Virus record (IMG/VR): IMGVR_UViG_3300025806_000292
Span: 1 to 20,493 of that record
Strand: one strand, 5' to 3'
Length of the DNA stretch: 20,493 nucleotides
DNA from: a virus
Within the stretch, counting starts at the first letter, position 1. Each line of letters begins with the position of its first letter. The notes under the pieces are model-generated. The model did no database searches, had not been told where the DNA came from, and worked only from the letters and a program-made list of their open reading frames with translations. Below are positions 921-20,473 of this stretch, one piece after another. The position numbers were made by a program, and so were the translations under genes.

Positions 921-1319
921 TCACTCCGGCTTAGTTGGCCAAATTATATCATCTATTGAAATTGCGTCAGCATAAACATACGGGATGTCTCTTAACGCTT
1001 GCCTGTATGTTGCCCACTCTGCTTTCTTTCTGTCGGATAATGGGCTATCTGAAAATTGCGTCCAGTCTGACTTTATCAGCTTTTCGTTTCTTCTTGCTCT
1101 GATTTCTGGCTGCATTATCAAAATAAGCTCTTCATTAGTAAGCTCTTCAAGCTCCGGCTTTTCACATACAACACCATCAATAATCATTTGCGTAGAGTCG
1201 TTGGCTACGCCTTCTATGACTAGCTCATCATCATTCGCTTGAAATTTAAAATCTTGCTCGGCGCATATTCCAGTTCTAAGTATTAACCCGCTAGAATCAT
1301 AAACTATATAGTGCTTCAT
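921..1319 (-). CDS. Phage tail assembly chaperone-like protein (Phage_tail_APC type)
   Basis: A 132-residue protein. The C-terminal half carries SDWTQFSDSPLSDRKKAEWA followed by YRQALRDIP, the hallmark of the small chaperone-like proteins (Phage_tail_APC and DUF4376 relatives) encoded beside tail fibres. The N-terminal half (MKHYIVYDSSGLILRTGICA) resembles the beta-rich start often fused to this motif. The ATG overlaps the stop of the J-like gene (ATGA) and uses AGAGG inside that gene as ribosome binding site, so translation is probably coupled. It lies between the J-like gene and the fibre gene; many phages place it after the fibre. The inferred role is helping fold or attach the fibre. The name 'assembly chaperone' is by family and is not proven for most members. 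Confidence 0.8.
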   Translation of the reverse strand: MKHYIVYDSSGLILRTGICAEQDFKFQANDDELVIEGVANDSTQMIIDGVVCEKPELEELTNEELILIMQPEIRARRNEKLIKSDWTQFSDSPLSDRKKAEWATYRQALRDIPYVYADAISIDDIIWPTKPE

Positions 1320-4300
1320 TTTTTAACCTCTAATGCTGATACAGAGAAGTTTCTATTTGCCGCAATTAAATCAGAAAAGTTAGCTTCTTGGACAATAGGT
1401 CTAACTCTTAACGACCAAGTATGAGCGCCTGAAGTAGTATTGTCTAAAGCGGATATGCTAATTGAATTTCCAAAACTATCTATCATTTGATTCAAAGCAA
1501 GTGTGGTTAAGCTTGCAATATAAGTTGTAACATAATTGCCTTTAACAAAACCCTCCTGTATTACCGTTGCATCTCTCAAAATTTGAAATTGTATATTTGT
1601 TCTGCCATTAGGCTCCTCTGGATCGTCTTCTTGTATTCCAGCCGCCATTTCTCCACTAAAACTTAAAAATACATTTCCTCCAGCAGACGTAAAGGTTATA
1701 GCAGATATTTCTCGCCATTGAGGAACTGAACTTATTACTGGAACCCTATAGTTGCTTCCGTTGATATTTTCAATGCCTCCGGTTGCCCATTCAGTATATG
1801 CAGGAGCTGTTGTTGTTGATCCGCTTGGTATGGTTACTGCATTTCCTGCAATCTGAAAAGTATCAACAGCAAGGCTTGCAATTTTGCCTGAAGTGACTGC
1901 AAGGTTAGATATTTTTGCGGACGTAACGGCAAGATTTGAAATATTAGCCGCAGTAATTACAGCATCGCTAATCTGCGCTGTGTCAGTAATAACCCCAGCA
2001 GCAGCAATTAAGCCACCAGTAATAGAGTTAGCCGCAATCTTATCCGTGGTAATCGCGTCAGCAGCAATAGCAACAGCAGTAATCGCATTAGCGGCAATGG
2101 CATCAGCGCCAATAGCGCCAGCTTGAATAGCGCCAGCGGTAACAGCATCAGCGGCAATCTTAGTTGATGTTATAGAGTCAGCAGCAATACTATCGGCAGT
2201 TACCGCATCAGCCGCGATCAAGCTAGCAGTAATAGCATCAGCAGCAATGGCGGCAGTAGTAATTGATCCCGCGCTAATAGAATCAGCAGTAACCGCGCCA
2301 GTCGCTATCTCGTTAGCTGTTATAGCATCAGCGGCAATCTTAGCGGTGGTAATAGATCCGGCTTCTATTTTATCAGCAGTAATAGCATCAGCAGCAATGG
2401 CATCAGCAGTAATCGCGCTAGCGGCTATCTCAGAAGCCGTTAAAGTATTCGCAGCAATGTTATCGGCAGTAATCGTATTGGCCGCTATCTCAGCAGCTGT
2501 AATGGCGCCAGCAGCGATCTTTGCAGTAGTTATAGCATCAGCAGCTATAGTGTCAGCAACAACGGCTCCCGCTTGTATCTTGGCGCTAGTAATAGCATTG
2601 GCGGCAATGGTATCTGACGTAATAGCTCCAGCGGCTATCTTTTCTGATGTTATGGCGGCAGCGTCTAGCTTTGCCGTAGTGACAGAGCCTGCGGATAATT
2701 CAGTTGCAGTAATAGCATCGGCGGCAATGTCGGCAGCGACAATAGTGTTTGCGGCTATCTTTCCAGAGGTGATCGCGTTGGCTGATATCTCATCAGCAGT
2801 AACAGCTCCCGCTGCTATCTTTCCAGTTGTAATTGCGGCTGCGGCTATCTCGTCTGCTGTAATCGCACCGGCTGCAATTTTGGCAGTTGTAATCGATCCA
2901 GCTGCCAATGATTCAGTAACTACCGCTCCGGCTGCAATGTTATCTGCCGTAACAGCATCAGCAGCAAGCTCAGAGGTAGTAATGGCATTAGCTGCAATTT
3001 CTGCTGCCGTAATTGTATTGGCTGCTATCTTGGCAGACGTAATCGCATTAGCTGCTATTTCATCTGCAGTAATGGCTCCAGTGGCTATTTCGGATGCTGT
3101 AATAGTGTTAGCGGCTATCGAATCAGCAGTTACCGCATCGGCAGCAATTTGGTCAGCAGTTATAGCATTAGCAGCTATTTTAGCGGTCGTAATAGCATCA
3201 GCTGCAATTGTGGCAGTTGTGATCGCTCCAGCGGAAATTTCTGCCGCAGTAATTGTATTGGCGGCAATACTATCTGCAGTAACAGAATCAGCTGCAAGTT
3301 GAGACGCGGTAATGGCATTGGCGGCAATCTTTGCAGTAGTAATTGCATCAGTCGCGATCTTAGTTGTAGTTATCGCGCTGGCGGCAATAATGTCTTCAGT
3401 AACAGCATCGTTAGCTATCTTGGCTGTCGTTACAGCATCAATACCAATTTTGGTTTCAGTGATGGCACCTGCTGCAATTACATCTCCCTGAATAGCGTCA
3501 ATAGCTATTTTAGCGTTAGTTACAGCATCACTAGCAATCTTTGTTTCAGTGATTGCGCCTGCAGCTATTACGCTTGCAGTAATTGCGTCAGTGGCTATTT
3601 TTGCTGTAGTAACTGCATTTGATGCAATCTTTAAATTGCTTACAGCGCCATCAAGCAACTTATCAGAGGTTATTGCATTAGCGGCAATTACATCACCTTG
3701 AATAGCGTCAACGGCAATCTTCGCAGTAGTTACAGCATCATCGGCAAGTTTTAGTGAGGTTATAGCGCCAGCGGTAATAGCTTCGCTTGTAATCGCACCA
3801 GCTGCAATGACATCAGCAGTAATTGCATCGGCTGCTATCTTGGCATTAGTAACAGCATCATTAGCCAATTTAAGCTCATCGATTGCTCCATCAAGTATTT
3901 TGGCTGCGGTAATCGCACCAGCTGCTATGACGTCACCTTGAATAGCATCAACAGCTATCTTGGCATTGGTTACAGCATTATTGGCTATCTGCAGGCTAGA
4001 TACAGTTCCTTCCAGGTCAACAGTTGCAATCTTAGCGGTCCAAACAGTTCCAGTATAACGATACGTTTTATTATCAGTTGTGAGGAATACCTGGCGTCCC
4101 TGAAAGTTACCAGTAGTCGGCAATAATGCGACAATTTCAATTGGTCGCAAATTGGCTGGAAAGTTTGCAGAAGCTAAGGCCCCGTCAAGATCCGCTGCAG
4201 CTATCTCAGAAGTCCAAGCGCTGCCAGTGTAACGATAAATCTTATTATCAGTGGTCAAGAATACAAGCTTAGGCCCTGTGTAACCGCTGGGGTTAGGCAA

Positions 4301-6631
4301 AGTAGCGACAATGCTAATTGGCTCAATGCCAGATGCAAATGATGCAGCGTCCACCGTTCCAGCTTCAATGGAAAAGATATCATCCGTCCATTCCTCAGCG
4401 GTAGCATCCCATCGATAAAGCTTATTTAAAGTAGTTTCGTATTTTATTTGGCCGTCAAAATCACCCACTGCTGGCAAAGTTGCTACAGGCTCAATACCAT
4501 AAGCACCCGCCTCACTAAATAAGTTATTTACTTCCTGACTAAACGAGTCAGTATCAACAAACAAAGTAGTGGCAGAAGATACTGCAGATTCTTCAGATAT
4601 ATTCCCGCTGTAGTCAACCGCTTTTAGCCAGTAATACCTTAATACGTCATAACCCAATCCGGTCCGGCTAAAATAATCACCTCCCGCTATAGCAATTTTG
4701 CTTGACGTGGCAAAGTTATTGACAGAGTTTTCCCATATTTCGACGTGGCTATAATCTGGATCAGTTGGCGGAACCCAGCTAATAGTTATTTCTCTCAAGC
4801 TGCCAGTTGCGACGATTGAATCAGGAATAGCAGGGGCATCTGTATCGCCTTCGGCAAGTCCCGAAATAGTAATAAAGTTACTCTTAACGCCAAAATCATT
4901 AACCGCCCGAATGCGAATATTATAATTTGCGCTCGGCGTAATCCCTTTAAGAATGTATTGCGTAGTAGTAACAAAAGTCGAATTGTAATCAGGCTCGTCG
5001 GTTTCAACCGGTTCATCAATGGAGCCATAATCTAGCAAAACAGATGCGGCAGCAGTTATCAGCCCATAATTCTCAGATTCTGTATATTCATCAGCTATAC
5101 TGCCCAGATCAATGATTGCTGATCCGCGCTGGTATTGCACCTCATACTGACTAACAAAAGAATCTGCGCTGCGAGTCCAGTTCAACCTTAACGATGGCAG
5201 CAAGGTTCCGTCATCTGCCACTACAGTCGTAGAAACAACAGCTAAGTTTGTTGGTGGTGCGACACTAAATGGATTTGGCAAGTTAGTATCAGGGTATACC
5301 TTTTGCTCTGCAGCCAAATCATAAGTATAAATAGTTGAGTCGTATTCAAGTAATGACACGTCACAAGTGCCATCATAGTTCAACAGTATAGCTTCAACTT
5401 GAAACGGCTTGTCGTCCCATCCTGGCGTTTCGTGGGTAACTGTTACTACGTCACCAACTGATAGCTGCAAAGCCTCGCTAGTGGCTTTAAATGACGTTCT
5501 AAGGGCATTTCTCGAACGCTTGAGTATAACCCTAGCCAAATCCCTAGCAGCGTAATAATTGGTAATTGTTTCAAGCGCTATCTCTTCAACCAATAAAGTG
5601 CCATTGTCTTCCGCAAGAAAATTAGATTCTTCAGTTGATCCAGGCTCAGGCCATACAGCTTGATCAGGTTGATAATCAACTACTGGATTAGCAAACTTTA
5701 CAAGTACGCGATTAAATTTGTTTTCCTTGGTTTCTCCCTGAATGGATATACCGCCAACAATGGTTTCATGATCAAAGGCAAAAACACTTGATCGGCTTTT
5801 ATCAATGATTAAGCTGTAGAAACCTTGGTTATAAGGTAAGAAACCACGGCAACCCATTAGCATCTTTTCTATATTAGAAAATAGCGTTTCGTCTGTTTGC
5901 AATACTGTGTTGCATTCAAATATTTTGCCGTTTTCGCCATCAGGGTAAAAAGTGACTGATTCATCACAATCATTGGCGGCATTGCTAAACGCTGTGTCAT
6001 CTATAGCAGATAAAGGAACCCCTTTACCATACCTGTTGTTGGTCAAGTAATCTCTGATACATAGCGCTGGATTATTGCTGTAAACAGTATTGGCACTACG
6101 AGGATCGTAAACCTTGCGCCCTTTAACTACTGCCGTAATGTCTGGCACGCCGCTAAATACATTACTATTCCATTTTAAGCGAATAGCAATATATGCAACT
6201 CCGCTCAATTTGTGATCAGACGTCCAACCCGCATTTGCCTCGGTTAGCAATGGATCATAAACTTGATCATCCGCACCGGTATGCACGTTGTAAGTATATA
6301 AACCCGAATACTTTGAGTCTGTAATCGGCACGTCGTCAATATACAAATCATATATTGATTCGACCTCTCCCTCAGCCATTGCTAAGGCAATATATAAAAA
6401 CTCGTTTGGATCTCCACCAGGAGCGTTTTTAGTTGATACAAAAACCCGAACTCCACCAACTCTACGCTCGCCATATATAACCGGAATAGGCTCAATGTTA
6501 GATTCTTTGTTAACAAGAACGCCGGCCATTGCATCAGCGGCTTTCTGGGCTTTTTTCATTGCCTGCCGTTGCATTACATATGAAGCTGCAGTAGTTGCAA
6601 CAAATAAAGCAATAAATAAACCAATGCCCAT
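1316..6631 (-). CDS. J-like central tail fibre / tail tip attachment protein with long decapeptide array
   Basis: A 1771-residue protein, the largest here. Residues 1-35 are hydrophobic then basic. Residues about 45-450 contain the conserved tip region typical of lambda gpJ and related tip attachment proteins (IPVIYGERRVGG, LYIALAMAEGEVESIYDLYI, NNPALCIRDYLTN). Two fibronectin-III-like domains start near residues 453 (PPTNLAVV) and 598 (APAIPDSI). Three tandem repeats of about 55 residues follow at 713-874. A 66-copy ten-residue array fills 885-1544, trailing into about four degenerate copies. A unique C-terminal domain of about 180 residues (GGIENINGSNYRVP onwards) may fold like a virion tip or collar domain. 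The ATG overlaps the preceding stop (TAATG) with a GGGGA site. The protein would close the tail tip and reach the host receptor. Family assignment is firm; the array's fold is inferred. Confidence 0.9.
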   Translation of the reverse strand: MGIGLFIALFVATTAASYVMQRQAMKKAQKAADAMAGVLVNKESNIEPIPVIYGERRVGGVRVFVSTKNAPGGDPNEFLYIALAMAEGEVESIYDLYIDDVPITDSKYSGLYTYNVHTGADDQVYDPLLTEANAGWTSDHKLSGVAYIAIRLKWNSNVFSGVPDITAVVKGRKVYDPRSANTVYSNNPALCIRDYLTNNRYGKGVPLSAIDDTAFSNAANDCDESVTFYPDGENGKIFECNTVLQTDETLFSNIEKMLMGCRGFLPYNQGFYSLIIDKSRSSVFAFDHETIVGGISIQGETKENKFNRVLVKFANPVVDYQPDQAVWPEPGSTEESNFLAEDNGTLLVEEIALETITNYYAARDLARVILKRSRNALRTSFKATSEALQLSVGDVVTVTHETPGWDDKPFQVEAILLNYDGTCDVSLLEYDSTIYTYDLAAEQKVYPDTNLPNPFSVAPPTNLAVVSTTVVADDGTLLPSLRLNWTRSADSFVSQYEVQYQRGSAIIDLGSIADEYTESENYGLITAAASVLLDYGSIDEPVETDEPDYNSTFVTTTQYILKGITPSANYNIRIRAVNDFGVKSNFITISGLAEGDTDAPAIPDSIVATGSLREITISWVPPTDPDYSHVEIWENSVNNFATSSKIAIAGGDYFSRTGLGYDVLRYYWLKAVDYSGNISEESAVSSATTLFVDTDSFSQEVNNLFSEAGAYGIEPVATLPAVGDFDGQIKYETTLNKLYRWDATAEEWTDDIFSIEAGTVDAASFASGIEPISIVATLPNPSGYTGPKLVFLTTDNKIYRYTGSAWTSEIAAADLDGALASANFPANLRPIEIVALLPTTGNFQGRQVFLTTDNKTYRYTGTVWTAKIATVDLEGTVSSLQIANNAVTNAKIAVDAIQGDVIAAGAITAAKILDGAIDELKLANDAVTNAKIAADAITADVIAAGAITSEAITAGAITSLKLADDAVTTAKIAVDAIQGDVIAANAITSDKLLDGAVSNLKIASNAVTTAKIATDAITASVIAAGAITETKIASDAVTNAKIAIDAIQGDVIAAGAITETKIGIDAVTTAKIANDAVTEDIIAASAITTTKIATDAITTAKIAANAITASQLAADSVTADSIAANTITAAEISAGAITTATIAADAITTAKIAANAITADQIAADAVTADSIAANTITASEIATGAITADEIAANAITSAKIAANTITAAEIAANAITTSELAADAVTADNIAAGAVVTESLAAGSITTAKIAAGAITADEIAAAAITTGKIAAGAVTADEISANAITSGKIAANTIVAADIAADAITATELSAGSVTTAKLDAAAITSEKIAAGAITSDTIAANAITSAKIQAGAVVADTIAADAITTAKIAAGAITAAEIAANTITADNIAANTLTASEIAASAITADAIAADAITADKIEAGSITTAKIAADAITANEIATGAVTADSISAGSITTAAIAADAITASLIAADAVTADSIAADSITSTKIAADAVTAGAIQAGAIGADAIAANAITAVAIAADAITTDKIAANSITGGLIAAAGVITDTAQISDAVITAANISNLAVTSAKISNLAVTSGKIASLAVDTFQIAGNAVTIPSGSTTTAPAYTEWATGGIENINGSNYRVPVISSVPQWREISAITFTSAGGNVFLSFSGEMAAGIQEDDPEEPNGRTNIQFQILRDATVIQEGFVKGNYVTTYIASLTTLALNQMIDSFGNSISISALDNTTSGAHTWSLRVRPIVQEANFSDLIAANRNFSVSALEVKK
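2000..3979 (-). repeat. 66-copy, 30-bp coding repeat (decapeptide array) in the J-like gene
   Basis: Read on the minus strand, 66 consecutive ten-codon units fit the consensus [D/N/G]-A-[I/V]-T-x-x-x-I-A-A with no insertions or deletions. Further degenerate units continue in shifted register to about 1845. Codons vary freely between copies (for example GCA/GCT for Ala, ATT/ATA/ATC for Ile). The protein repeat is therefore conserved more than the DNA, and the array is not a recent slippage product. Conserved Ile/Val and Ala at fixed spacing suggest a regular, probably trimeric, beta-helical or fibrous shaft. Confidence 0.95.
4010..4495 (-). repeat. Three tandem ~55-residue domain repeats in the J-like gene
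   Basis: Residues about 713-874 of the J-like protein hold three related segments with the pattern IEP-x-x-ATLP ... G-x-F-x-G ... K-x-YRW/YRYTG-x-x-WT. Copies two and three share VFLTTDNK-x-YRYTG almost exactly; copy one is more divergent (IKYETTLNKLYRW). They link the fibronectin-like domains to the decapeptide array and look like small beta domains duplicated in tandem. Function is unknown. Confidence 0.85.
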
Positions 6632-7763: not shown

Positions 7764-9379
7764 GCTATTGAAGCCCTTCCGCGATCATTTACGGCTTGAT
7801 TAATCATTGAAACAATCTGACCACGCCTAGAATTTAACAGCTGATCAAAACCTTTGGTATCATTTGCCTGAATATTAAAGCTTACATTAATGTTTCTATC
7901 GCCAGATACACTTTCACCACCAACGGCACGCTTTAAGTTTTCGTTAGTAGCAATTCTTCCCGATGTTCCCATCGTCAGCAGCTCAGGTCCACGTTCACCC
8001 ACAAGATAAGATTCGCCGCCTCTAACCTGGCCGCCTAATGCCCTACCGCCAGCAATAGCCGTTCCAGCTACAATGCCAGCAGAAGCATAGCCCATTGCTC
8101 TAATGCCTTGAACTGAGGCAAGCCAAGCTAACGGTCCAGCACCGGCAACATAAGCAGACGCCAATGCAGCGGCTTGTTCCGTTGATACAATAATCTGAGC
8201 AATCGCAATGGCTTTTTGGATGGCAAACAATGCTTTCTGTGCATTACTGCCCTCTTCTGCTATCGCTCCTAATTGGCCAACCATATTACTAGCACTAGCC
8301 AAGGCATAATTTTGTATCTGATCTTTTGCATCTTGAACGCGTTGTTCTTCGGCAATCTTTCTATCATTAATTTTTGCGATAGCTCCAAACAAATCTTCTT
8401 CGCGCTTTATATCGTTTTGTTTAGCCGTTTCATCTGCTTTAGCTTTTTGCTCATTAAGCCTAAGAAATAAAGACTGTAACCGTTCTTCATTGGCAACCAT
8501 TTCTTTATTTAAGTTAGCAGTGTCTTTAATGGCCTGCTGCTCTGCCTCGTGAGCTTCTATTTTGTCGTATAAGGTATTAATGGCAGCTCTATTAGCAGCC
8601 TGGGATTCATCAGTTCCAACCTTATACAATGCAATTTCACGCTTAGTCATGCCAAGCGTTTCTGCTTCTTCTTTCAGTTTGTTAATTAATGATTCAGTGG
8701 CATCGGTAGTGGCATCAATGCTTTTGATAGCTTCTTCGCGCAAAAAGGTAAGACGCTCAATCTCTGTCGCGTTTATTTGCATTCTTTCGGCAAAATCTTC
8801 CTGGCTTTCTGTTTCCTTTGCTTGAGCCAAAAAACCATCATAAGTTACTTTTATGCCAGAGCGCTTTTCCTCGTTTAACTCAGCAAGTGCTTTGTCATAT
8901 TCTGCAACTCTAGCCGTAACAAGTGATCTAACGTAAGTCTTTGCAGCTTCACCCAGATTATCGAAATTGCTCTCAAGATCCTTCATGTCTTCTTGCAAAG
9001 CTTTCATGGCTTCGCCAGTGCCGGTCAAGCTATTATATAAAGCTCCAGCTAATATCGCACCAAATGCAATGACAGCACCAGCTACCGCGCCACCAGGGCC
9101 GAACACCGATGCAAGCTGTGGTCCCTGTTGTGCAAGAATAGTAAATGCGCTTGTTCCCATTTGCGCTTGAACCGCGACATCCTGAAGCTGATACGATACT
9201 TGAGTCGCGCCTCCCTTCATCATTTTGAAAGGGGTGACGTTATTTTTTGCAGCAGTACCAAGGTTTTTAGTTTGCGTTTCGGTTTTCTTGCCTTGTTTTT
9301 CTAGGTTATCGAGCTCTTGAGTGGCAGACATTACGCCATCAGTAGTGATCTTAATTCCTAATTCTGCGACATCAGCCAT
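7760..9379 (-). CDS. Tail length tape measure protein
   Basis: A 539-residue protein. The N-terminal part (ELGIKITTDGVMSATQELDN; YQLQDVAVQAQMG near residue 60; ILAQQGPQLASVFGPGGAV) is typical of the TMP_2-type tape measure. Hydrophobic segments lie near 96-115 and 385-445. The middle, about 120-350, is long, charged and helical, and the C-terminal GG-x-V-x-GGESYLVGERGPEL motif around residues 450-468 is a tape measure hallmark. It sets tail length and is ejected with DNA. At roughly 1.5 angstrom per residue, a known rule of thumb, the tail would be about 80 nm, which is short for the class. The start overlaps the end of the frameshifted chaperone by 8 nt. Confidence 0.95.
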   Translation of the reverse strand: MADVAELGIKITTDGVMSATQELDNLEKQGKKTETQTKNLGTAAKNNVTPFKMMKGGATQVSYQLQDVAVQAQMGTSAFTILAQQGPQLASVFGPGGAVAGAVIAFGAILAGALYNSLTGTGEAMKALQEDMKDLESNFDNLGEAAKTYVRSLVTARVAEYDKALAELNEEKRSGIKVTYDGFLAQAKETESQEDFAERMQINATEIERLTFLREEAIKSIDATTDATESLINKLKEEAETLGMTKREIALYKVGTDESQAANRAAINTLYDKIEAHEAEQQAIKDTANLNKEMVANEERLQSLFLRLNEQKAKADETAKQNDIKREEDLFGAIAKINDRKIAEEQRVQDAKDQIQNYALASASNMVGQLGAIAEEGSNAQKALFAIQKAIAIAQIIVSTEQAAALASAYVAGAGPLAWLASVQGIRAMGYASAGIVAGTAIAGGRALGGQVRGGESYLVGERGPELLTMGTSGRIATNENLKRAVGGESVSGDRNINVSFNIQANDTKGFDQLLNSRRGQIVSMINQAVNDRGRASIA

Positions 9380-10054
9380 TTTTGTTTGTCTCTTGATAAT
9401 GTAAGGTATCTAGCCAGCGTATTATGTCCACTTCAAAAGGTGACAAATCGCCATATATGTTTCCGTATGCTTGTATCTCATCATATCCAATTGAACCCTT
9501 ACTGGCATTCTTTAAAGATACAAACATAGACCACAAATATAGCAATTCAGGCTTTAGCTTTGGCACATTTTCAAGCTCTTTGGGCTTTCTGCCTAAACTT
9601 TTCTCAACTTGCTGCAAATTCTGCAAACGGCTAACTTTTGAACCTTCATCATACCCAGCGGCCCAAAACTGCCACTTTGCATAATCTACAATATCTTCAG
9701 TTAGCCCATCGTAAAATTTTTGCGATCAACCACGAACCGGTCAATCTGAGCAGCAATAGCGGGCGAATTGCTATATAAATCTTTTGCCTTGTCTTCACTA
9801 AATTCTACTTCTAGCTTTCCATCCTCAAGGCCGCGCCATCCTTTTGTAATGGCTACCAACAAATAAACCTCGGCATCTTCATCCTTGTTTAACATCTTTC
9901 GATGAAACTCTTTTACAGCGTTTCTGTACTGCTTTGAATCAATACCCCGTACCGAGACATAGAAATCTGTCTCTTTGCCGTCTAATGGGCTTACAATGCG
10001 TATTTCAGCCCCTTCCTCATGCGCTTTAACAGTGTATAGCTCTTTTATATCCAT
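9372..10054 (-). CDS. Tail assembly chaperone GT, -1 ribosomal frameshift product
   Basis: The frame in -1 relative to the chaperone G gene is open from the slippery site at 9713-9719 to a stop at 9372, and it has no convincing start of its own (the first candidate is a TTG at 9626 with no good ribosome site). Slippage at A AAT TTT joins residues 1-114 of G to 113 residues of extension beginning YDGLTEDIVDYAKWQFW, giving a 227-residue GT protein. In lambda and many siphophages, G and GT coat the tape measure and recruit tube subunits. The position, directly between tube and tape measure genes, is exactly as expected. The extension ends within the first codons of the tape measure gene. The frameshift is inferred from sequence only. 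Confidence 0.82.
9701..10054 (-). CDS. Tail assembly chaperone G
   Basis: A 117-residue protein (MDIKELYTVKAHEEGAEIRI ...). An in-frame ATG two codons earlier lies next to the AGGGGA ribosome site, so the ATG at 10054, with about 7 nt spacing, is the better start. The content fits the phage_TAC family: a beta-rich N-terminus followed by helices (SKQYRNAVKEFHRKML, AAIAAQIDRFV-like) and a stretch near residues 65-80 about growth of acidic loops (VAITKGWRGLEDGKLEVEFS). That GW-containing region is typical for siphophage G proteins. The gene starts just after an intrinsic terminator and ends shortly after the slippery site. The short form acts with GT on the tape measure during tail assembly and is absent from virions. 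Confidence 0.85.
   Translation of the reverse strand: MDIKELYTVKAHEEGAEIRIVSPLDGKETDFYVSVRGIDSKQYRNAVKEFHRKMLNKDEDAEVYLLVAITKGWRGLEDGKLEVEFSEDKAKDLYSNSPAIAAQIDRFVVDRKNFTMG
9713..9719 (-). other. Probable -1 programmed frameshift site (A AAT TTT)
   Basis: On the minus strand the zero-frame codons are AAA AAT TTT ACG ATG GGC TAA. The heptamer AAATTTT follows the X XXY YYZ rule in the right phase, three codons before the G stop, and the -1 frame continues for 113 codons. I see no obvious strong downstream stem by eye. Confidence 0.8.
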
Positions 10055-10070
10055 TATCATCCCCTATGAT

Positions 10071-18219: not shown

Positions 18220-19458
18220 TTATCTCACAAAGCGTACGCGTAAATCAGCCACCGGCTTTATTACTGGCAGTTCAAAAGCAATCGGATAGGTTCCGGCATC
18301 TGGCAAGTGATCAAGGTTTGACTTTTTGTCTGGCGTTCCGTTTGCGTCATAAGCTAATTGCTCAAGGCATCTAGCGTATTCAGGGCACGCAACATCATTT
18401 ACAAATAATCGACCTTTCTCAAATGCGTTATTAGTCGCCATTATCCGGTCTTTTACAAAAGGATTCGTTTTATTTGCGTATATACGAAACCCAGCATCTT
18501 CTAGCAACGATATATCAGAAATAGACGCGTCTACAGATTTCCTACTGCGACCACTGGCGTCTGGATATATTCTAATAGAATGATTTGGATACTTATCCTT
18601 AATCACTCTAATCATTGCGGGCGTATCATAAATGCCCTTAAATTCGTCTACAGCGTGCCATTCTGCGCCTTTAACTATATAGACTACCGCTGACATATTG
18701 GTGACGTTAAAGTCCATCCCAATGCATAACAGTTCGTTCTGTGGCACTTTCTCATCAGACCTACATCTGATTCTATCATAAGCATTATACACGGTGCCAG
18801 ATTGCAGATTGACAAACTGGCCTTCTAAGTATGCCGATAACAAATTATCTGGATAAATATCCTTTAGCGACTGGATATAATCACTTGGCAGATGCGGATT
18901 GCTTGAGGTAGGCGCTTGTATTATCTCATACCCTTCCTTTGGGTCTTTCTTCCAGGTTTCATATACAAACTTAAATCCCTCTGGAGTAGTAGTAACTCCG
19001 ATAGTGTTTGATTCGCCATTAATCTTTGTCTGTCGATTCCTTGCAACTATCTGCCTCCAGGCATAAGCAGCATCATCCTTTTTCATTGTATCTAATTCGT
19101 CTACGTCAGCGTCTGCGTGCTCATAGCCGATAATTCTATGCGGAGCATCCATGGACCGGAAATAGATCCGGCCATAGCCTTCAATTTGAATGTAATTAAG
19201 TGGCGACTTGTATAGCCTATAAGAAACCCCTAATTCTTCAAGTGCTGCCTCAAATCTAGGAAAAGCAATCATTCTTATAAGATCATAAGTCGGCGCGTAA
19301 AATCCTCGATCTGTTCCAGGATTAGCCAGCTTACCAAATATAGCGCGCTTTATAGCAGCCTCGGTCTTACCCGAACCAAACCCAGCCACTAAAGCAGGGT
19401 ATCTTGCCTTAGTGGTAATATAGTTAAATTGCGGGATAGTTGGGTAAACTTCACTCAT
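18220..19458 (-). CDS. terL: Terminase large subunit (ATPase-nuclease)
   Basis: A 412-residue protein from ATG at 19458, overlapping the small subunit stop by 8 nt. The N-terminal ATPase has Walker A GFGSGKT at residues 26-32 and a Walker B-like DVDELD with the catalytic Asp-Glu pair near 120-121; a TTTPEG coupling motif is at 157-161. The RNase H-like nuclease begins near 245: GMDF gives Asp249, IYPDASGR gives Asp300, and DHLPDAGTYPIAFELP supplies Asp387, a plausible metal-binding set. This is the motor that cuts concatemers and pumps DNA through the portal. Length and motifs fit the Terminase_6 family with intact active sites. Packaging strategy (cos or pac) cannot be decided here. Confidence 0.95.
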   Translation of the reverse strand: MSEVYPTIPQFNYITTKARYPALVAGFGSGKTEAAIKRAIFGKLANPGTDRGFYAPTYDLIRMIAFPRFEAALEELGVSYRLYKSPLNYIQIEGYGRIYFRSMDAPHRIIGYEHADADVDELDTMKKDDAAYAWRQIVARNRQTKINGESNTIGVTTTPEGFKFVYETWKKDPKEGYEIIQAPTSSNPHLPSDYIQSLKDIYPDNLLSAYLEGQFVNLQSGTVYNAYDRIRCRSDEKVPQNELLCIGMDFNVTNMSAVVYIVKGAEWHAVDEFKGIYDTPAMIRVIKDKYPNHSIRIYPDASGRSRKSVDASISDISLLEDAGFRIYANKTNPFVKDRIMATNNAFEKGRLFVNDVACPEYARCLEQLAYDANGTPDKKSNLDHLPDAGTYPIAFELPVIKPVADLRVRFVR

Positions 19459-19807
19459 TCGGATTGACAATGCTAATTGTAATCGGCTGAGCAGCTTCTT
19501 TTTCCCCTTCAGGCCTATCATGCCATTTAAACCTATTGGCAAAATATAGCTTAACTAAAGGCACGTTTACTTCTTTGCTATACATCATTTCTTCAAGCTT
19601 ATCTTCCCAGTGAGCCTGGGACCAATCTTGCGCAAGGTCTAATGCGTCCGAAAATTCATCAAATTCTTGAGCCCATTTATAAACGGTTGATTTGCTAACC
19701 TTAATATCTCTTGCAAATTGAGTAACAGATTTTCCCTGTTCACCGACAACCTTGCAGATCAAGCTGCAGAATTTATCATCGTATTTTGTGGGCCTTCCAA
19801 CGTTCAA
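19451..19807 (-). CDS. terS: Terminase small subunit
   Basis: A 118-residue protein. An N-terminal helix-turn-helix (GKSVTQFARDIKVSKSTVYK, about residues 25-45) sits after a basic GRPTKY start, a layout common in phage small terminases that recognise the packaging site. The rest is helical (DEFSDALDLAQDWSQAHWED ... VPLVKLYFANRF) and probably forms the oligomer. It lies directly before the large subunit. The best start is a TTG (19807) overlapping the previous stop as TTGA, with GGAAC about 8 nt ahead; no ATG or GTG occurs nearby. A chromosomal HTH regulator is an alternative, made unlikely by the context. Confidence 0.88.
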   Translation of the reverse strand: MNVGRPTKYDDKFCSLICKVVGEQGKSVTQFARDIKVSKSTVYKWAQEFDEFSDALDLAQDWSQAHWEDKLEEMMYSKEVNVPLVKLYFANRFKWHDRPEGEKEAAQPITISIVNPNE

Positions 19808-20280: not shown

Positions 20281-20397
20281 TGATCGAAAATGACGGTTTA
20301 TCATGCAAGTTATATCATAAATGGTATTAACTTAAATAAAGCTGGACTTGAATGTGCGTAAAAGTGTTCAGTCATGCAGTTTTAAAGGTGTATAAAG

Positions 20398-20473
20398 TGT
20401 TCCGTAGAGGAATCGAACCTCTATCTCCACGGTTTTTTAGGCCACGACAGTCCTACCATTAGACGAACGGAAC
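20398..20473 (-). tRNA. tRNA-like gene, anticodon unresolved
   Basis: The minus strand has a perfect 7-bp acceptor stem (GTTCCGT/ACGGAAC), D arm GTCT-AATGGTA-GGAC and T arm AGAGG-TTCGATT-CCTCT with discriminator A. CCA is not encoded. The stretch between D and T arms is 27 nt instead of 22-23. The best anticodon stem, CGTGG/CCGTG, contains two wobble pairs and would leave a 9-nt loop CCTAAAAAA with three nucleotides before it. A 7-nt loop CTAAAAA would give anticodon AAA but needs a C-A mismatch. The amino acid therefore cannot be assigned. It may be functional, degenerate, or affected by an error in the A6 run. The region 20164-20397 beside it holds the short unit described separately and otherwise nothing I can support. 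Confidence 0.75.

Follow-up and report, generated by a model that had tools for sequence, protein, structure and literature searches.

In the central fiber protein gpJ of phage lambda, a hub is followed by two fibronectin type III domains, an alpha-helical shaft, a beta-sheet prism, and a receptor-binding domain (PMC11101478). Arrays of ten-residue repeats are also known in phage fibers, though little described; a literature search for decapeptide or 10-residue tail fiber repeats gave no paper that described them. The decapeptide AIT-x-x-K-I-A, also the repeat of the protein analyzed here, is present in fibers of the phrog_892 family, in the cyanophages P-SSP2 and S-TIP37, in the J proteins of DSS3_VP1 and Paracoccus phage Pkon1, and in Arthrobacter phage Mimi. 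In DSS3_VP1 and Pkon1, the arrays are likewise part of a J-annotated protein and are followed by the gene for a tail assembly chaperone. The arrays of the other phages are broken (24 and 8 units; 16 and 18 units), whereas the protein described below contains one uninterrupted run of 66 units. The minor tail protein of Mimi (L214) had the largest total among the arrays examined, at least 124 units in many interrupted runs, the longest being 31 units. Decapeptide arrays as such also occur in bacterial genomes. Serial duplication and transfer of repeat arrays, as found here, was reported for the BACON-domain tandem repeats in the tails of crAss-like phages (PMC6949934), but these repeats are whole carbohydrate-binding-type domains and not units of ten residues. 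What is unusual in the present case is the single 66-unit run, constant in some lineages and subject to modular change in others.

The window, which is the complete stretch of viral DNA analyzed (IMG/VR record IMGVR_UViG_3300025806_000292, 20,493 nucleotides), encodes on its minus strand a J-like tail hub or central fiber protein of 1,771 residues in a single open reading frame (positions 1316 to 6631). The assignment as J-like in the initial annotation, made from the letters alone, was borne out by sequence searches with phrog_31 (E 5.7e-72), pb3 of phage T5 (7zhj, E 1.1e-30, closest to the hub by sequence among the PDB entries), and lambda J (E 2e-4). Judged by these matches, the protein is a member of the lambda J/T5 pb3 tail hub family, and the genes for tape measure, distal tail, hub-N, J, and chaperone/fiber follow each other in the order of that family (TMP_2, phrog_1302, phrog_2048, Phage_tail_APC). 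The J/pb3 hub domains comprise residues 1 to 505 (positions 5117 to 6631; phrog_31 and phrog_37728). A fibronectin type III region follows (residues 506 to 700, positions 4532 to 5116), with a Pfam fn3 match at residues 480 to 582 (E 5.2e-6) and weak matches in the remainder. Three modules of the type LP..G..(V)FLTTDNKxYRYTG (residues 701 to 874, positions 4010 to 4531), kept in about 77 viral loci, precede the array. The array is entered by unit 0 (GTVSSLQIAN, residues 875 to 884, positions 3980 to 4009), which was recognized by its unit score and is kept in relatives. The C-terminal head (positions 1319 to 1831) ends the protein. Downstream on the same strand are the gene for a tail assembly chaperone of the Phage_tail_APC type (positions 921 to 1319; PF16778, E 5e-18) and a second fiber or spike gene with an Mtd_N domain that runs off the end of the window (positions 2 to 916; PF18454, E 4e-13).

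This layout agrees with that of lambda gpJ (8xcj, 8iyk) in its sequence of hub, fibronectin domains, fiber, and C-terminal head, with the hub matching by sequence and the head by fold. It differs in that the alpha-helical shaft and the short mixed beta-sheet prism (PMC11101478) are replaced by about 72 decapeptides preceded by three YRYTG modules, so that, given the lambda domain order, the array occupies the place of both. T5 pb3, unlike the protein analyzed here, has only 949 residues and gave no match to a decapeptide array. A search of one genome each from 84,980 bacterial and archaeal species returned neither the YRYTG module nor prophage relatives of it, which suggests, without proving it, a virulent life style.

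Residues 885 to 1544 (positions 3979 to 2000, minus strand) consisted of exactly 66 in-phase decapeptides with zero indels, so that the count given in the initial annotation was exact to the base. The consensus by column was [DGN]-A-[IV]-T-x-x-x-[IL]-A-A. Position 1 is a G/D/N cap, Ala was found at position 2 in 53 and Thr at position 4 in 57 of the 66 units, positions 3 and 8 are near-invariant Ile, Val, or Leu (position 8 being Ile in 58 units and Leu in 8), and positions 5 to 7 are free to vary. Thirteen stretches of the array matched phrog_892, a decapeptide tail fiber repeat with tandem A-[IV]-T-x-x-x-[IL]-A units (E 5e-106). Downstream of unit 66, a one-residue slip at AGVIT is followed by about five degenerate units in a shifted register, which reach to about residue 1600 and form the fixed exit of the array (AGVITDTAQIS ... 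NLAVTSAKIS ... LAVDTFQIAGNAVT; positions 1832 to 1999). Because degenerate units flank the 66, the true array has about 72 units. On the plus strand, an open reading frame of 351 codons runs antisense over the array (positions 2247 to 3302); it results from the composition of the repeats and is no gene candidate.

It is quite probable that the array is the stalk in the central fiber of a lambda-like marine siphophage, a fiber composed of a hub, a decapeptide rod, and a swappable head, with a length that changes by whole units. As in its homologues, the hub would sit at the tail tip as a trimer and close the tail tube. Three chains of decapeptide units would most likely combine into a rigid rod of beta structure, as suggested by the neighbors on both sides, the hub and the head, whose classes are trimeric in known relatives. 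This rod would hold the head, with its predicted TNF/C1q-like fold and presumed receptor-binding function, off the tail tip, and it may relay the signal of binding to the hub in analogy to the shorter beta-prism of lambda gpJ. In the alignments, array length changes as whole units are gained or lost in the middle, between fixed entry and exit phrases, and the head tends, by correlation, to move together with the downstream chaperone, independently of hub and shaft.

The relatives available for comparison comprised about 50 complete ones, the close ones being all metagenomic contigs; the number of loci exceeds that of contigs, with several loci representing overlapping stretches of one contig under different identifiers. 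The longest run per complete relative, unit 0 included, was 3, 4, 7, 9 to 11, 13, 15, 18, 24 to 26, 31, 51, 66, or 67 units, as expected from the earlier proposal that shaft length may differ between relatives. Compared to the array of the window, L032 was without units 16 to 31 (16 units), L011 without units 7 to 42 (36 units), L049 without units 1 to 54 (54 units), and L044 without one unit; L003, a partial contig compared by position, had seven extra units. In L004, L007, L009, and L040, the 66 units were intact with zero gain or loss. Shaft length is thus variable, yet 66 units are stable across several diverged lineages. The entry phrase AVTNAKIAV-DAIQGDVIAA-GAI and the exit phrase NSITGGLIAA-GVIT... 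were retained in most relatives in the alignment; the most distant arrays (L069 to L082) aligned less cleanly and had different end units. No relation of shaft length to the length of the tape measure was seen (Spearman 0.22, p 0.32, n 22).

The modules of the protein differed in their relationship to the window. In L040, the hub was only about 31% identical, while the fibronectin region, YRYTG modules, and array were 77 to 80% identical (array 80%). In L036, identity was about 30% for the hub, 98% for the head, and 77% for the chaperone; in L102, it was about 71% for the hub, 96% for the head, and 80% for the chaperone, with the array almost absent. L051 and L085 possessed hubs of 100% identity and heads of 30%, and in general heads only 18 to 39% identical were found on hubs 85 to 100% identical. 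The C-terminal domain was previously thought to be unique, but the same head (95 to 98% identity) occurs on a 31-unit shaft behind a hub that is about 30% identical and also on a nearly arrayless hub. In these comparisons, hub, shaft, and head, the last with the downstream chaperone, assort independently. The chaperone was 77 to 81% identical where the head was common (hubs about 30% or 71%) but 48 to 60% identical where the hub (86 to 93%) and not the head was common. Its partial rank correlation with the head given the hub was 0.36, versus 0.14 for the hub, and the Mantel p value for head and chaperone was 0.002. Chaperone identity follows the head more than the hub; plain adjacency of the genes could account for the correlation.

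Crossovers within the gene were visible. L009 was L004-like up to about residue 1350, inside the array, and L007-like beyond, and L007 and L010 differed by about 20 to 30% over most of the hub but by 1 to 4% from residue 701 onward. In the J protein of L003, window-like and L004-like tracts alternate between residues 450 and 1250, together with a diverged insertion of seven units. This sequence is probably an intragenic recombinant and less likely a chimeric contig.

Such crossovers inside the array raise the question of whether the array is chiefly a recombination platform for the exchange of heads, with its length being incidental. Array and YRYTG tracts common to hubs that differ by 20 to 30% in nucleotides, and the many heads on near-identical hubs, would agree with this. 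However, 66 units are held in several diverged lineages, which would be unexpected were length incidental, and the hub and the fibronectin region hold crossovers too, as in L003. A platform role as the main function is therefore unlikely.

The first part of the array carries a higher order. Units with V/I-I-A-A were found at units 2, 6, 10, 14, 17, and 20 (within units 1 to 20, positions 3380 to 3979) and nowhere else in the 66 units, which is the 4-4-4-3-3 register of the initial annotation, and exact copies of DAIQGDVIAA were units 2 (positions 3920 to 3949), 10 (positions 3680 to 3709), and 17 (positions 3470 to 3499), also as noted there. In exact counting done post hoc, the probability that six marks in 21 units are separated only by gaps of 3 or 4 was 0.002, and that all six are inside the first 20 of 66 units was 0.0004. 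Shuffling of the unit order gave a periodicity of units 1 to 21 at lag 4 (z = 3.0) and lag 8 (z = 2.3). The later units, described before as more uniform, are so only in part: units 22 to 66 repeat with a period of five units, though less strongly (lag 5, z = 2.4). The comparative evidence for the register is stronger than these tests. All six positions were identical in L004, L009, L034, L040, and L044, and L040 kept them although the dS value of its array versus the window was about 1.9. In L149, a fiber of another phage and without J hub, the gaps between the marks were 40-40-40-30-30 residues, again 4-4-4-3-3.

L149 (open reading frame of 1,197 residues) has one YRYTG-type module and a 59-unit array with this entry, and L153 and L154 are shorter fibers without J hub that resemble it. 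Fibers of the L149 type point to a shaft cassette common to different fiber types.

A DAIQGDVIAA-type unit was present in 48 of 51 distinct arrays, and its first occurrence was within the first six units in all 48, compared to 23% expected for a random place. Because the loci were picked by phrases containing part of it, its presence is biased; its position in the array is free of this bias. DAIQGDVIAA is read here as the array-entry unit, with the copies at units 10 and 17 derived from an old block duplication; a copy of unit 17 also ends the seven-unit extension of L003. The register would then be an old record of entry-block duplication that is now under constraint at the protein level. Alternatively, register and entry phrase may be functional marks, such as kinks, chaperone stops, or docking sites, and not just a fossil of duplication. 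If so, this would explain why the spacing is kept despite synonymous saturation and in L149, and why length changes mostly between fixed ends, but such a function is rather doubtful.

The array is old, because its longest exact direct DNA repeat was 27 bp and the units are saturated at synonymous sites: paralogous blocks, the three DAIQGDVIAA units included, differed at about 40 to 80% of the four-fold sites. This saturation rules out a recent duplication. Selection for synonymous diversification that stabilizes the array is also unsupported, since shuffling of codons gave slightly more DNA repeats and not fewer. Omega of the array was about 0.06 versus L004 and L007 and 0.07 versus L040, at dS values of 1.1 to 1.9. 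By segment, omega versus L004 and L007 was 0.018 to 0.037 for units 1 to 22 and 0.08 to 0.09 for units 23 to 66. Low omega at near-saturated dS means that the units are kept one by one and without homogenization, and the array is under purifying selection along its length.

Purifying selection of this strength, in units 1 to 22 especially, exceeds what a mere spacer might require, and the entry units are conserved across unrelated fibers. Both would fit an array that is itself adhesive, its exposed polar positions attaching all along the rod to a glycan of the surface, while the head would be secondary or a cap. Near-identical phages vary in the head and not in the array, however, which is the usual sign of the receptor-specific part; the same head classes are kept in relatives with 3 to 11 units; and positions 5 to 7 differ freely among the units. 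An adhesive array is improbable for these reasons, and the head is the better candidate for the receptor-binding part of the fiber.

The head was modeled with AF2 from 21 sequences, with a mean pLDDT of 71 and blocks at 86 to 93. By sequence, it matched no phage record. Foldseek against the PDB gave the central fiber of lambda gpJ (8xcj_F, E 2.1e-6, with a query-normalized TM-score of 0.29) and, as further matches, the Pgp3 C-terminal domain, BC2L-C, C1QL1, and C1q/TNF-like domains. The head is predicted to be a jelly-roll-like domain of the lambda gpJ fiber kind and presumed to bind the receptor. It would resemble the trimeric TNF/C1q-like heads of Pgp3, BC2L-C, C1QL1, and the cell-binding domain of the A-1(L) fiber, which in their sequences are only 9 to 16% identical to it in those alignments.

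The AF2 model of the array, a monomer, was all-beta with a ten-residue period at a pLDDT of 62. Shafts of the triple beta-helix or beta-spiral type, as in T4 gp5 and the adenovirus fiber, are beta rods made of three intertwined chains. A fold search with it returned nothing below E 0.001, and the leucine-rich-repeat proteins at E 3 to 10 carry no meaning. Searches of the PDB found no solved structure of a long decapeptide array: phmmer gave chance matches only, and the best profile match, 9eg4 'orf16' (269 residues), covered only four units (E 1.1e-7). The fiber of P-SCSP1u gave a weak profile match (E 0.07); its paper reports clearly resolved N-termini of the fibers. The low pLDDT, together with the Ala-rich low-complexity composition, could also indicate a tether, flexible or disordered in part, instead of a rigid rod. 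The strict ten-residue spacing over 66 units and the exact register in diverged lineages suit an ordered repeat, as do the almost constant Ile, Val, or Leu at positions 3 and 8 and the G/D/N cap at position 1, and the model itself is all-beta with the period of the units. A flexible tether is thus quite improbable.

Tandem repeats often misassemble and the close sequences are all metagenomic contigs, but that copy number or register is an assembly artefact, an objection raised with the first description of the array, is hardly credible at a longest exact repeat of 27 bp, with a second contig (L002) identical to the window over 4,122 nt through unit 49 and 66 units recurring in independent, diverged contigs.

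Phage fibers need a certain reach, and the evolution of this reach is poorly tested. Within the family, related hubs carry longest runs of between 3 and 67 units, one head is found with 3, 31, or 66 units of shaft, and hubs that are nearly identical bear many different heads. Because rod length, head, and hub vary separately across the family, they can be compared as separate variables. The family also raises the question of how the signal of binding would travel along a rod that is far longer than that of lambda.

Elsewhere in the window, the minus strand contains a tRNA gene (positions 20397 to 20473) with an A-rich anticodon loop, whose anticodon was read as AAA (Phe), which is odd for bacteria. 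Serratia phage Tsm2, Salmonella phage Shemara, and similar phages have a large terminase subunit about 48 to 50% identical to the one encoded here (positions 18220 to 19542, minus strand), which suggests that the packaging genes have gammaproteobacterial relatives. A slippery heptamer, A_AAT_TTT, is located at position 9719 of the minus strand, a few codons before the stop codon of an open reading frame of 119 codons (positions 9701 to 10060). From the heptamer, the −1 frame is open into a reading frame of 84 codons (positions 9372 to 9626) directly before the tape measure gene, and both together are a candidate for a programmed frameshift of the lambda G/GT type.
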